This document shows positions 1-29,111 of a stretch of DNA of 29,111 nt, one piece after another (the first letter of the stretch is position 1; each line of letters starts with the position of its first letter). The stretch covers positions 1 to 29,111 of IMG/VR virus record IMGVR_UViG_3300025652_000363, one strand, 5' to 3'. Made by a program: the position numbers and the translations under genes. The notes below the pieces were generated by a model, which saw nothing but the letters and a program-made list of their open reading frames with translations, made no database searches and was not told where the DNA came from. The stretch is from a virus.

Positions 1-768
1 TGAGCCATCGCTTACCGCTGTAGGAGTTACACCATCACCAGAACTTCCCGCATTCCACCCAGTCATATCACCAGTTGCGAAATCTCCGTTTGTAATAATC
101 TCCGCACCAGTATCCGTAAAATTTGGATTGTCTACAAGGTTGATACCCTCCGCACTAAAATCTCCGTTCGTTACTTCCTCACTTCCTAACGCTTGGGTGC
201 TTGTTGCTTTGCTGTCTCCAATCGTCCATCCTATGCCTTGTGTCCAATCTTCACCTTCTTCTTTGACAGATACGTTAGAAATTGTTGTGGGAGTTGTGTA
301 TGCTCTGAATGTTAATGTAGTGCCTTCAGCAACTGCCGTTATTGTATTTAACCCATCCGTTAAAAGATGAAGAGTAGTTGCGGAAGTCCCAAAATACACT
401 CTACAATTACCACCACTAACTTCAACGGTTATAGTATAAGTCTTTCCTGATTCAAAAACTGAATAAGTAGATAAATTGCTGTATGCAGTTGCATCCGTAT
501 AGGCAGAATTACTATTAATTACCCACTTACTTCCAGTAGTCCAATAAGTTCCCGTGGTACTTTCAGCTTGTGTGCCAGTTAAAGAAAAGTCCCCATCCGC
601 AACTAATTCAGTTACACCAGTAAAACCTCCGTTAGTTATTACATCCGTACCTAATTCATCAAATTCACCATTCTCTACTAAGTCAGTACCCAACTGCGAG
701 AAGTCACCATTCTGCACCAATTCAGGACCAGTCTTAGTTTCGTTGGAGTTGGATATTATTTGTAGCAT
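1..768 (-). CDS. Repeat-rich phage adhesin/tail fibre-like protein, N-terminal part (cut by window edge)
   Basis: An open frame of 256 codons runs from an ATG at 766-768 off the left edge of the window; an in-frame stop lies upstream at 799-801. The first 60 residues hold four back-to-back copies of a short motif (LVQNGDF, LVENGEF, VITNGGF, LVADGDF). Then comes a beta-rich module with GKTYTITVEV and ending ISNVSVKEEGEDWTQGIGW, then more NGDF starts (EEVTNGDF, EIITNGDF). Such NGDF...GKTY...ISVKE modules are typical of carbohydrate-binding-like beta-sandwich repeats in Bacteroidota phage virion proteins, so a receptor-binding role is inferred. The frame is in phase with the 26430-29111 frame across a 29111-to-1 join, so both are probably one gene. 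It starts just after a strong terminator. Confidence 0.75.
   Translation of the reverse strand, partial: MLQIISNSNETKTGPELVQNGDFSQLGTDLVENGEFDELGTDVITNGGFTGVTELVADGDFSLTGTQAESTTGTYWTTGSKWVINSNSAYTDATAYSNLSTYSVFESGKTYTITVEVSGGNCRVYFGTSATTLHLLTDGLNTITAVAEGTTLTFRAYTTPTTISNVSVKEEGEDWTQGIGWTIGDSKATSTQALGSEEVTNGDFSAEGINLVDNPNFTDTGAEIITNGDFATGDMTGWNAGSSGDGVTPTAVSDGS
111..444. repeat. Direct repeat, copy 1 (334 bp, matches 28778-29111)
   Basis: By eye alignment, positions 111-444 match 28778-29111 without gaps and with five mismatches (about 98.5% identity). Weaker similarity continues to about position 75. The repeat encodes the end of one adhesin module and the start of the next, and the missing indels keep it in frame in both places. 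The second copy ends exactly at the last base of the window. Confidence 0.9.
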
Positions 769-10973: not shown

Positions 10974-11427
10974 ATGGTGCTATGCATAAGTCGTTAGAAT
11001 TAGACACCTCAATAGAAAAAGAACCACTCCATCCCGTAAGCTCGTTATCGAATCGTGCCGTAAAAGGTGTACACGAAGCAGGTAAGTCAAACTTGTAGTC
11101 GTTATCTACCGTTGTGTTGCTATTCGCTAAAGATTGAATAAACTGGTCTAAGACATCGTGAAGTAGTTGAAGGGTATCTGAATACACTTGCGTTCTATTC
11201 TTTAGGTCGGGTAGGATCATATCCGCCACCAACAATTCAAGGTCGTATGTAAGCGTTCCGTTATCTATCGTTACCCCCATTATCTCGCAGTACAAAAGTG
11301 GATAATCGGGTTGTCCGAGTTTTGCAATATCAACCTGGTCTAAAGGTCCTGCATGAAACGATTGAAGGATTAAGTGCTTCTCTTCTATGTTTTCTAAAAG
11401 TTCTACTATCTGTTTGTATGATTTCAT
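10966..11427 (-). CDS. Probable tail completion/minor tail protein
   Basis: The product has 153 residues: an N-terminal helix (SYKQIVELLENIEEKHLILQ), then a beta-rich part with YPLLYCEIMGVTIDNGTLTY and a helix (TLQLLHDVLDQFIQSLA). Size and neighbours (chaperone upstream, gp10-like downstream) fit a tail terminator/completion protein. The ATG overlaps the TGA of the -1 frame extension of the chaperone. Confidence 0.5.
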   Translation of the reverse strand: MKSYKQIVELLENIEEKHLILQSFHAGPLDQVDIAKLGQPDYPLLYCEIMGVTIDNGTLTYDLELLVADMILPDLKNRTQVYSDTLQLLHDVLDQFIQSLANSNTTVDNDYKFDLPASCTPFTARFDNELTGWSGSFSIEVSNSNDLCIAPYV

Positions 11428-11661
11428 CGGTATTGGCTTACGTCAGGTGCTTTGTCTTTACGACTGTTATCTTGTTCATAAGATAAAAACGTAAAAGCCG
11501 ATTCTATTTCAATTTCAGTTGCCGCCTCTATTTTCAACGGGTCACCCCCTGCAAGAAAATGGATCGTAGAATACCACCCCCACTTCTCAGCAATCAAATT
11601 ACCTTCTCCTCCTCCACTAAAGAGTTGGCTAAATCTTTCGTTAATATCACGCCTATAGACA
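11424..11661 (-). CDS. T-like C-terminal extension of the tail chaperone, reached by -1 frameshift
   Basis: This frame is -1 relative to the chaperone gene and is open from a stop at 11703-11705 to a TGA at 11424-11426. There is no ATG in it; only TTG at 11595-11597 could serve as an independent start. The part past the chaperone stop reads KWGWYSTIHFLAGGDPLKIE and then ESAFTFLSYEQDNSRKD, a helical protein resembling small frames found after tail chaperones in related phages (from memory). A slip at the T9 run would give a product of 164 + 79 = 243 residues. The stop overlaps the next ATG, so the 3' end of this frame is tied into the operon. Confidence 0.75.
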
Positions 11662-12154
11662 AAAAAAAATTGATTGCACCCATTACTACATCCATCTTTA
11701 AATCATCCCAGTAGGTGGGGTTGCCGTCACCTTTGTAGTCTTCTATCGTGTAGAAATCCCCTGCTTCGGTTTTAATAGGTCGGTAAAGGATGCTTATTAT
11801 GTAACCTAAGTTCTCAAATAAACCTTGTGAGCAATACGTTTCTAAATCTGCAAACTCTCCTACCGTGAGCTTAGAAAGGTTCGGGTGAAAGCCATACCGC
11901 TTCCCTTTGTAATCTAATTTCGATACTAACTTTTCGTCTTGCCCGTCTGCGTCATTTATGCGGCTTATGATGCTGCTTATCTTTTCCATTTCAGGAATAG
12001 TCAGTTGGTTGGTTTCTTCTTTGGATAGGTTGCACATTATACAAATCGCCTCTACTATCCACTCGGTAGATTTCTCATCCAAGTTAAGTTCGGCTAAAAG
12101 TTTGTATTGCTTAACGGTTATGTCGGCAAGTGAATCGGGTACGGTTATTTTCAT
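11594..12154 (-). CDS. Tail assembly chaperone (G-like)
   Basis: The product has 186 residues, starts MKITVPDSLADITVKQYKLL and is mostly helical and acidic. The early ITVKQY.LL motif and the length are typical of chaperones that bind the tape measure protein before tail tube assembly. Codons 162-165 read AAT TTT TTT TTG, part of a T9 run, and lead to a -1 frame extension as in lambda gpG/gpGT. The zero-frame end is an acidic tail (SLVEEEKVI). It lies directly after the large terminase gene. Confidence 0.65.
   Translation of the reverse strand: MKITVPDSLADITVKQYKLLAELNLDEKSTEWIVEAICIMCNLSKEETNQLTIPEMEKISSIISRINDADGQDEKLVSKLDYKGKRYGFHPNLSKLTVGEFADLETYCSQGLFENLGYIISILYRPIKTEAGDFYTIEDYKGDGNPTYWDDLKMDVVMGAINFFLSIGVILTKDLANSLVEEEKVI
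11661..11669 (-). other. Candidate -1 ribosomal slippery site (T9)
   Basis: On the minus strand the sequence is AAT TTT TTT TTG, with nine T residues in a row. In the zero frame the heptamer T TTT TTT permits tandem slippage of both tRNAs by one base. The -1 frame is then open for 79 codons. No clear stimulatory hairpin was found at the usual distance; a weak one begins about 34 bases downstream. Confidence 0.65.
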
Positions 12155-18730: not shown

Positions 18731-18868
18731 AATATAATGTTTTGGAATTAATAGTGCCGCGAAGGTAATACAAATAAACTATAAAAAAAAATAAAAAAAA
18801 GTTGCTTTTTATTTGGTGGTTATAAAAAGAAGTTTGTATATTGCGCTATAATTAAAAACCAAAACAAA
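18731..18868. promoter_or_regulatory. Divergent control region
   Basis: These 138 bases separate the leftward and rightward operons and hold no gene. They are very AT-rich, with A8-type runs at 18783-18800. On the plus strand GAAGTTTG at 18829-18836 is one base from the Bacteroidota -7 element TAnnTTTG. On the minus strand TTTATTTG, just left of the A-tracts, is also one base off. The -33 elements are not clear. An origin here is possible because the initiator gene is close. Confidence 0.5.
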
Positions 18869-26433: not shown

Positions 26434-29111
26434 TTTGAGTAAACGTATTGAGTAAGCGTAGGGTTATATTCTTTAAACCCGTCAGTAAGTTCTTGCATAT
26501 TACCACTAAAATCACGAACGAAGGCAAACCCCTTCTCTAAAAGTCCAGTAGCTAACAACGGGTCTAAGTTTGTGGAGGATGTTTGCTCGTATATTTTAAA
26601 CTCATAAAAACCCATAGGGTAGGTATCAAACCCACCCGCCGAATCGTAGAAAGATATTATTCCTACCGTTGGTTGTGTGAGTGCATCTTTACTTACTACC
26701 GTAAAATTCAATTTAGTATAACGTCCATTATTGGGTACTACCGAAGATGGAATGAAATATATGCTATTCTTCGAAGCCATAGAAGTTAATTCTACCAAGT
26801 AATACACACTCGCTTGTGGAAGAGTTTGAACGTCTGCGGCGGTAACGTAAATACTTTGGTCTTCGTATGACCCTAAAAGTTTTGCTGATACCGAAGAAAC
26901 CGCCCCATCAAAAGTTCCAAGTTTACTACGTATAGAGAAATCCGTTCCCGTTGTAGTTAAGTCTTCGGTGTATGTTTCTATAGCTACGGCATCCGCACCC
27001 GCAGAACCTGTTACTACGGCTTGAGCCGTTCCCGCATCATAGTCAACGATTTCGTAAACCGTGCGGTATGTTTTCCCTGCGGTAAGTATGCTTTGCGTTA
27101 TGTCTGAATTTGAACCCGTAACGGTAGAAATAGCTTTATCCGTACCTATCGACCAACCCGTTCCTAATGTCCAGTAATCGTTCGGGTCAACTTGTTCAAC
27201 TGAGATGTTTGTTACAGAACCATTAAATAGACTGCCTACTTTTGGATAAAATCTTAATACACTATTTGTGCTTGTGCTTTTTAAATAGATACTAAATGTA
27301 CCATCTGAACTTCCCACATCAATAGTAGCACCTAAACCAAGTCTTACTTGCAATGTCCCACTATTATAGTTAGATATTGTCCCTTTAATTAAATATGATT
27401 TATCTTGTTGTAAACCAACATCTTGGTTTAAATTTCCCGTATTGACTCCATCATTAGAAGCTTTATCTTCTCCAAATACCCAACCATTAAGTGTCCAATA
27501 TCCGTTCGGATCTACAAGTTCCGCAGAGATACCCGTTACCGCCCCTTCAAAGTATCCGTCTATATTTACCATGCGAAAATCAGAAACTGCCCCGATTTGT
27601 ACGTACTCAGTTATCCCGACTGCGTTTGCCGTAGTCACCACACCATAATCCGTAGCACTTACCGAACCCGCTATGTAATCCGATACGCTGTATATTATCT
27701 TCCACGTTTTAGCGGAAAGGGAAACGCCTTGTGTTAGGTATGATGTCGCTATCTCTTTGACTGAGATGTTTGTGATAGTAGCATTAAGAACCCCTCCGCC
27801 TCTTTTAATTTCCAGATAAGTCCCTGCTGCTGTGACGTAACCTGTTTTTGTTCCAACAGTTGAAAAAATATCTGAAACTCCCCCAATAACTAAACCCAAA
27901 TTACCACTTATAGATTTTATCTCTAAACTATATTTATATGTTTTTCCTGAGATAGTTACATTAGATTGTGATATTCCTGCATAGCTACCGTCAGGACTTA
28001 CAATAGTTGCCTCATCTTCTCCTATTGTTGCGGCAGTAAGTGTCCACCCCTCTCCGAGTTCTTGGACTGAGACGCTGTGGAAAGTTAAATCTACATTTGA
28101 ACTTGAACGAAGAAATTGAAGGTAAATATTAGATGTTGGTGTAATATACCTCGTGTTATTCGTTCCTGAAGTGGTGGCATTAAAAATCTCAGTTATCCCT
28201 CCTCCCTCAAGTTTTACCCCACCACTAACACGAGTTAAATCTACCGTTAATTTATAAGATTTATTTGCGAGTAATGTAGTTGGCTGATTTAAATATACAG
28301 CGGGGGAAGTAGTTGCAAAAACAAATCTCGCTCCCGTTTCTATAAATTCAACGTAGTGAGTAGCGTCTGCATTTAAAACAGTCCAATCCGCACCGAGTTC
28401 TTTAACGGATACGTTGTCTATTTCTTGTAAATCGCTACTTCCAGCGTAAAACATAAGTGCGCCTCCACTATGGTCTGACGAAGATATATAATATTCATAT
28501 CCTAAGTTTTCGCCAGTTGGTAATTTTGGAGATAACGCTGTACCACCTACATAAACGGTTATGTTATCAGCAGACTGTAAAATATCTATAGTTAATTTGT
28601 AATCTTTGCTACCATCTAAACTAAGACTTGATGTAAGGTTTCTATTTTTAGTAGCAGCACTTGTATCACATATCGCTCTACCATCAGCTATTCTCCAACC
28701 ATTACTTCCACCTATATTACTAAAAGTCCAATCACTATCTGTAGCAAAATCTCCATTAGTAACTAACTCACTTCCTGTATCCGTAAAATTTGGATTGTCT
28801 ACAAGGTTGATACCCGCAGCACTAAAGTCTCCGTTCGTTACTTCCTCACTTCCTAATGCTTGGGTGCTTGTTGCTTTGCTGTCTCCAATCGTCCATCCTA
28901 TGCCTTGTGTCCAATCTTCACCTTCTTCTTTGACAGATACGTTAGAAATTGTTGTGGGAGTTGTGTATGCTCTGAATGTTAATTTAGTGCCTTCAGCAAC
29001 TGCCGTTATTGTATTTAACCCATCCGTTAAAAGATGAAGAGTAGTTGCGGAAGTCCCAAAATACACTCTACAATTACCACCACTAACTTCAACGGTTATA
29101 GTATAAGTCTT
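26430..29111 (-). CDS. Repeat-rich phage adhesin/tail fibre-like protein, main part (cut by window edge)
   Basis: The frame is open up to the last base; the GTG at 29066 is only an internal Val codon, since upstream codons continue the module KTYTITVEVSGGNCRV. The 893 residues carry about six beta-rich modules marked by GWxxGxDKA, AGKTY and ISVKE motifs (for example GWTIGDSKA, GWVFGEDKA, GWSIGTDKA). The last 130 residues form a distinct end with DTYPMGFYEFKIYEQTSSTN and LLEKGFAFVRDFSGN. A receptor-binding or capsid-decoration role is likely. The stop overlaps the portal start by four bases, so the two are expressed together. Confidence 0.8.
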   Translation of the reverse strand, partial: KTYTITVEVSGGNCRVYFGTSATTLHLLTDGLNTITAVAEGTKLTFRAYTTPTTISNVSVKEEGEDWTQGIGWTIGDSKATSTQALGSEEVTNGDFSAAGINLVDNPNFTDTGSELVTNGDFATDSDWTFSNIGGSNGWRIADGRAICDTSAATKNRNLTSSLSLDGSKDYKLTIDILQSADNITVYVGGTALSPKLPTGENLGYEYYISSSDHSGGALMFYAGSSDLQEIDNVSVKELGADWTVLNADATHYVEFIETGARFVFATTSPAVYLNQPTTLLANKSYKLTVDLTRVSGGVKLEGGGITEIFNATTSGTNNTRYITPTSNIYLQFLRSSSNVDLTFHSVSVQELGEGWTLTAATIGEDEATIVSPDGSYAGISQSNVTISGKTYKYSLEIKSISGNLGLVIGGVSDIFSTVGTKTGYVTAAGTYLEIKRGGGVLNATITNISVKEIATSYLTQGVSLSAKTWKIIYSVSDYIAGSVSATDYGVVTTANAVGITEYVQIGAVSDFRMVNIDGYFEGAVTGISAELVDPNGYWTLNGWVFGEDKASNDGVNTGNLNQDVGLQQDKSYLIKGTISNYNSGTLQVRLGLGATIDVGSSDGTFSIYLKSTSTNSVLRFYPKVGSLFNGSVTNISVEQVDPNDYWTLGTGWSIGTDKAISTVTGSNSDITQSILTAGKTYRTVYEIVDYDAGTAQAVVTGSAGADAVAIETYTEDLTTTGTDFSIRSKLGTFDGAVSSVSAKLLGSYEDQSIYVTAADVQTLPQASVYYLVELTSMASKNSIYFIPSSVVPNNGRYTKLNFTVVSKDALTQPTVGIISFYDSAGGFDTYPMGFYEFKIYEQTSSTNLDPLLATGLLEKGFAFVRDFSGNMQELTDGFKEYNPTLTQYVYSK
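28778..29111. repeat. Direct repeat, copy 2 (matches 111-444)
   Basis: This copy differs from 111-444 at five positions, three of them within a stretch of about 16 bases near 28815-28830. The repeat reaches the last base of the window, suggesting the sequence was broken here because of the repeat. Confidence 0.9.

Follow-up and report, generated by a model that had tools for sequence, protein, structure and literature searches.

The G and GT tail assembly chaperones of phage lambda are the textbook example of ribosomal frameshifting that sets tail assembly, with the shift occurring at the site G GGA AAG, and chaperone genes of the lambda type typically have the tape measure gene as their immediate downstream neighbor. 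Conserved frameshifts in tail chaperones were reportedly described by Xu et al. in 2004. The locus described here resembles lambda G/GT in that an upstream tail gene is predicted to give both a short product and a C-terminal fusion that continues in the -1 frame, with the T part lacking an ATG of its own. It differs in that a T9 homopolymer of fixed length takes the place of G GGA AAG, in that the gene is located behind the terminase and ~5.8 kb before the tape measure gene rather than in the typical position, and in that we find no sequence family common to the two.

A second set of precedents is provided by Thermus dnaX (an A9 run), IS elements (a conserved run of 9A), and Shigella mxiE and spa13, for which programmed transcriptional slippage has been described (PMC1088944, PMC5009743). 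These genes and the locus examined here are alike in having an A/T homopolymer of about nine bases and an alternative C-terminus encoded by mRNAs of altered run length, but the former are replication, transposase and secretion genes, whereas the latter is a phage tail gene in which slippage is predicted.

Organization of the locus

The DNA analysed here, referred to as the window, is the 29,111-base IMG/VR virus record IMGVR_UViG_3300025652_000363, and the chaperone locus and the neighboring genes named below are on its minus strand. The G-like open reading frame (12154-11594) encodes a 186-residue member of PHROG 32199, a group of unknown function, and is a putative short tail-assembly-chaperone product. 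A first-pass annotation had drawn attention to a T9 run within the codons AAT TTT TTT TTG at residues 162-165 of this frame, to an overlapping -1 frame that is open without an ATG and whose stop codon shares bases with the following gene's ATG, and to a potential fusion of 243 residues, and each of these is borne out by the sequence. The run, which is the candidate slippage site, lies exactly at 11669-11661, spanning codons 162-165. The T-like -1 frame (11702-11424) is preceded by a stop codon at 11705-11703, is open from 11702 to 11427 and contains no ATG; it ends with a TGA (11426-11424) that forms part of an ATGA overlap (11427-11424) with the start of the following gene. The predicted fusion would join 164 residues read in the 0 frame to 79 residues read in the -1 frame, the translation of which contains ...KWGWYSTIHFLAGGDPLKIE..., and alignment identifies a KWGWY motif in the T-like domain at 11585-11571, 84 bases past the start of the run. 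A TTG codon in the -1 frame (11597-11595) overlaps the 0-frame stop and is a possible, non-conserved internal start.

The gene whose ATG overlaps the T stop (11427-10966) encodes a 153-residue protein of unknown function, and is followed by a gene for an HK97 gp10-like tail completion or neck protein (10973-10386; Pfam PF04883, E 2.2e-4), which places the locus in the context of a tail module. The terminase large subunit gene (13365-12211; Pfam Terminase_3, E 1e-23), rather than a tail tube gene, is immediately upstream of the G-like gene, and four other genes separate the latter from that of the probable tape measure protein (5636-3978), which matches PHROG tape measure profiles with E-values of 4.8e-6 and 4.3e-5. 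Near-identical open reading frames are also present close to either end of the window (128-370 and 28606-29037), suggesting that the contig contains a repeat or is terminally redundant.

Conservation of the T9 run

A T9 run is not in itself unexpected in this DNA; there are two matches on the two strands of the window, compared with 4.03 expected from dinucleotide shuffles, and the other (18783-18791) falls between the main open reading frames of its region. Judged from sequence comparisons, it is the conservation of the T9 run, and not its presence in an AT-rich window, that far exceeds chance. Relatives of the locus come from marine viral contigs, from the genome of Nonlabens phage P12024L and from prophages of Bacteroidota. 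When the G protein was used for scanning, 79 loci were obtained, and the run is exactly T9 in all 76 that were examined, the partial matches L057-L059 having been omitted. Scans that used the T domain alone, and so took no account of the run, found T9 in 25 of 26 chosen loci (the remaining one is incomplete) and then in 80 of 80, and 102 further loci from scans of this type enter the census described below.

For the census, HMMs of the T domain were applied to all loaded loci with an E-value cut of 1e-3; two weak matches (L365 and L380) had been excluded by hand before this stricter cut. Among the 465 T-domain open reading frames identified, 463 have the run, as T9 in 459 and as T10 in four; the other two are L193, whose contig starts past the run, and the divergent L419, which is a single open reading frame. 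Within the 302 loci recovered blind to the run the corresponding counts are 298 with T9, two with T10 and two with none. When reduced to 218 unique contexts, there are 215 with T9 and T in the -1 frame, one with T10 and T in the -1 frame (L346), and two with T10 and a single frame for G and T (L352/L415 and L529). Because several contigs were retrieved by more than one scan the loci are not independent, and clusters provide a fairer count: grouping at 70% T-domain identity gives 45 clusters, of which 44 have T9 and one T10, and at 50% identity T9 is present in all 18. The other coding open reading frames of the same loci (140,472 bases) contain T7 ten times, and a run of T8 or longer not once.

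Bacterial genomes were also scanned with a pattern of T7 ahead of KWGW[YF], which gave many chance matches; 24 pairs among the 80 matches listed were judged to be real by their frame and T domain, and of these 22 have T9 and two T10. They derive from records of Dysgonomonas, Prevotella, Bacteroides, Winogradskyella, Galbibacter and other Bacteroidota. Since the pattern demanded T7 plus KWGW, loci L291-L410 are conditioned on a run of at least T7. A run-blind scan of bacterial genome contigs with the T alignment, using one strict pattern only, gave no match, and a tblastn search of T domains against a phage collection gave only chance matches beyond the Nonlabens phages. In genome searches a match was found in 3 of 397 and 5 of 395 genomes, compared with 20 of 25 in the Dysgonomonas genus group, and we note that this last frequency is unusually high for a prophage. 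One Dysgonomonas genome carries the T10 allele L352/L415 beside a sister prophage (L345/L418) that has T9 with T in the -1 frame.

A predicted G-T fusion

The pattern of sequence variation across the run is informative as to how the two frames are used. In the clade to which the window belongs, represented by 34 unique sequences, the mean pairwise differences at the three codon positions of the 0 frame are 0.156, 0.13 and 0.497 before the run, while in the overlap past the run they are 0.21, 0.125 and 0.362 when counted by positions of the -1 frame. The T domain in the -1 frame is retained in every relative read. Because constraint passes from the 0 frame to the -1 frame at the run, as was anticipated by the earlier suggestion of a protein-like continuation joined there, it is very likely that a 243-residue fusion of the G-T type is made from this locus. 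The upstream open reading frame, toward whose 3' end the shift site is conserved, together with the overlapping -1 frame without a start, presents the lambda-type G/GT architecture.

The T part could instead be a separate protein, initiated internally at the TTG at 11597-11595 and coupled to the 0-frame stop that this codon overlaps. Some relatives have an ATG nearby, and two separate proteins are annotated in the isolate Nonlabens phage P12024L, whose G protein has 30.7% identity to that of the window. Its G and T (the latter with KWGWY) are linked by exactly T9 in the -1 relation, and the pair P12024L_40/_41 of phages P12024L and P12024S is homologous to the window locus in G and in T, but it is annotated as two hypothetical proteins rather than as the fusion proposed here. 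An ATG is found between the run and the KWGWY motif in 4 of 44 clusters and is absent from there in most, and protein-level conservation of the -1 frame begins at the run itself, upstream of any such start, so that we consider internal initiation very improbable. The first-pass annotation had named, as an observation that would count against a fusion, relatives with an ATG-started second gene and no slippery run; these were looked for among the relatives and none was found.

It had likewise named reads with 8 or 10 T that would bring both parts into a single frame; among the relatives, single-frame forms do occur, namely the T10 alleles L352/L415 and L529, and L419. The last of these is in a Galbibacter genome (minus strand, ~1041-1668) and is divergent, with G-like and T-like parts in one open reading frame that has no run. 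Homopolymers are prone to error, and the two T10 alleles with one open frame might reflect an assembly or sequencing error, or a run whose phase varies at the DNA level. The T9 run is, however, found in 459 of the 463 loci, which come from independent assemblies that include isolates, with the -1 relation kept in 216 of 218 unique contexts, and we find this explanation hardly credible.

RNA polymerase or ribosome

There are two ways in which the run could give rise to the fusion. The first-pass annotation favored -1 slippage of the ribosome on T TTT TTT, with transcriptional slippage as a further possibility, and our analysis reverses this emphasis. In programmed -1 ribosomal frameshifting, tandem slippage of tRNA-Phe on T TTT TTT would yield the same G-T fusion, with the two extra T residues of the run being held by the amino acid constraints of the overlapping frames. 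This is possible because every T9 locus that was read codon by codon has T TTT TTT, a valid heptamer of the X XXY YYZ type, in the 0 frame. The -1 relation of nearly all T frames (216 of 218 unique contexts) is predicted by ribosomal slippage as well, and there is precedent in the tail chaperones of lambda and many other tailed phages (PMC5009743).

Several features of the run nonetheless argue against the ribosome as the main agent. Slippage of the ribosome would require no more than T TTT TTY, yet the run occurs in two codon phases, NTT TTT TTT TNN (27 clusters) and NNT TTT TTT TTN (17 clusters), and its length is exactly nine in both. In the first phase, a C in the wobble position of the second Phe codon would be silent in both frames and would give U UUU UUC, which is one of the efficient -1 heptamers in E. 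coli (PMC4066793). TTC at this position is seen in 0 of the 27 clusters (P 3.3e-4, calculated from each locus's own use of TTC and taking the 70% clusters as independent). In the second phase, in which the change is silent in the 0 frame only, it is seen in 0 of 17 clusters (P 7e-4), such that neither T TTT TTC nor any other heptamer replaces T TTT TTT in any of the 44 clusters. The clean test is mainly that of this single wobble base, since the flanking T residues may be held by hydrophobic residues in either frame. We also find no signal of a stimulatory RNA structure downstream of the run (mean z -0.11 for 41 sequences), with the proviso that minimum free energy folding is blind to pseudoknots and that lambda-type sites may need no such structure, and we find no covariation downstream of the run.

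An A/T homopolymer of about nine bases or more, of conserved length and situated at the frame switch, is the sequence pattern expected of transcriptional slippage, and it is present here. Bacterial RNA polymerase slips more on poly-T, with insertion favored, and the E. coli enzyme slips already on T7 (PMC6260861), so that nine should not be regarded as a hard threshold. Many bacteria avoid A/T runs of nine within genes (PMC1088944). Taken together, the length of exactly nine in two phases, the invariant wobble base and the absence of any structure found favor programmed transcriptional slippage, and on this comparative evidence we regard a U9 to U10 change in the mRNA as more likely, short of proof, than ribosomal slippage alone. 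Of the earlier proposal, the heptamer itself stands, but its role as the main mechanism is weakened by the conservation of nine T residues and of the wobble base, while the transcriptional slippage that was then offered with a 'perhaps' is now preferred for the same reasons. Ribosomal frameshifting as the sole source of the fusion is the main rival, and seems to us somewhat unlikely. A combination of ribosomal and transcriptional slippage on the same run, a reading that overlaps with both of the single-mechanism ones, we regard as unlikely; the run satisfies each process and no computation separates a mixture from either one alone, but the transcriptional component suffices to account for the conservation of exactly nine.

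Our preferred reading, which we hold with moderate confidence, is that two nested tail-assembly proteins are produced from one locus, with the fusion arising chiefly through slippage of RNA polymerase on the T9 run. Faithful U9 mRNA would be translated into the 186-residue G-like chaperone, and slippage on the T9 template would add one U in a minority of the mRNA; normal translation of this U10 mRNA would then pass into the -1 frame and give the 243-residue G-T fusion with its KWGWY-type C-terminal domain. By analogy with lambda, the G part may coat the tape measure protein and the T part may recruit tail-tube subunits. Transcriptional slippage also accommodates the T10 alleles that read G and T in a single frame (L352/L415 and L529), because these still permit both products to be made.

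Relationships of the G-like and T-like proteins

The designation 'tail chaperone' in the first-pass annotation stands on the architecture of the locus, its neighborhood and weak fold and profile matches, but not on a clear match to a family. Searching curated families with the window protein identified no named chaperone family, and one of 30 homologues has a Phage_TAC_7 match (E 0.0081). An AlphaFold model of G (pLDDT 83) compared with BFVD using Foldseek matches many unnamed phage proteins, including one of Nonlabens phage P12024S, and weakly matches one named tail assembly chaperone (E 8.6e-4, TM 0.40). A relative of the G model among solved structures was also sought, but none was credible (Foldseek against PDB; best VIA-align Z 2.9). 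The model of T is poor (pLDDT 65.6) and its structural matches serve as leads only. We therefore suggest that the G/T pair may work like lambda G/GT, and make no claim of common descent. The tail-chaperone identity, production of the fusion and the dominance of polymerase over ribosome are all inferred.

Homopolymers in other Bacteroidota phages

Other isolates show varied junctions. Flavobacterium phage 11b has an A9 run near the end of its annotated gene 38 (L556, 17864-18535); the -1 frame continues across gene 39, immediately after which comes an open reading frame of 1.8 kb. Phage phi10:1, a weak homologue, has A8. The G-like gp10 of Flavobacterium phage 6H weakly resembles the G of the window, and its junction has no homopolymer of the T9 or A9 kind; an unannotated open frame (10047-10352 of L553) follows gp10. 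Homopolymers at the G/T junction of Bacteroidota phage chaperones are thus common, but not universal.

A second, unrelated family is typified by Bacteroides phage B40-8, in which a single 250-residue open reading frame (L554, 2248-3000) with an A10 run in its middle adjoins the tape measure gene upstream. There are 77 records of homologues of this type, some of them annotated in GenBank as 'tail assembly chaperone', and 11 (L554 and L558-L567), two of which are near-identical, were examined for the tail assembly chaperone with a run in a single G-T open reading frame. The run is A10 in nine, A9 in one and A11 in one, and in 9 of the 11 a stop codon lies directly past the run in the frame reached with one base fewer. 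HMMs of the window's family do not match B40-8. Both families are of Bacteroidota phages and have a homopolymer within the gene; they differ in that the B40-8 family has one G-T open reading frame at the DNA level and a run of A rather than T, and in that the tape measure gene immediately follows in B40-8, VA7 and P2559Y, unlike in the window. In the B40-8-like family it would be the short G that is made when slippage alters the length of the A9-A11 run. It is possible, although we advance this only tentatively, that the chaperones of Bacteroidota siphophages have for the most part moved the G/GT switch from the ribosome to the polymerase, convergently across the class, by T9 (with gain of a U) in one family and by B40-8-like A9-A11 runs in another.

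Implications

A frameshifted G-T fusion is of a known kind, but its production through slippage of RNA polymerase would be a new form of it, and searches of an open-access library turned up no description of a tail chaperone that uses transcriptional slippage. The length of the run is fixed at nine over a very large sequence distance, and recognizing it provides an annotation of the fusion frame in hundreds of viral contigs and prophages. If the interpretation is correct, predictors built around ribosomal heptamers would give these genes the wrong names, the switch would be readable directly from RNA and the ratio of the two products would be open to control through the polymerase, and across an entire bacterial class the G/GT ratio of the phages may be set at transcription.
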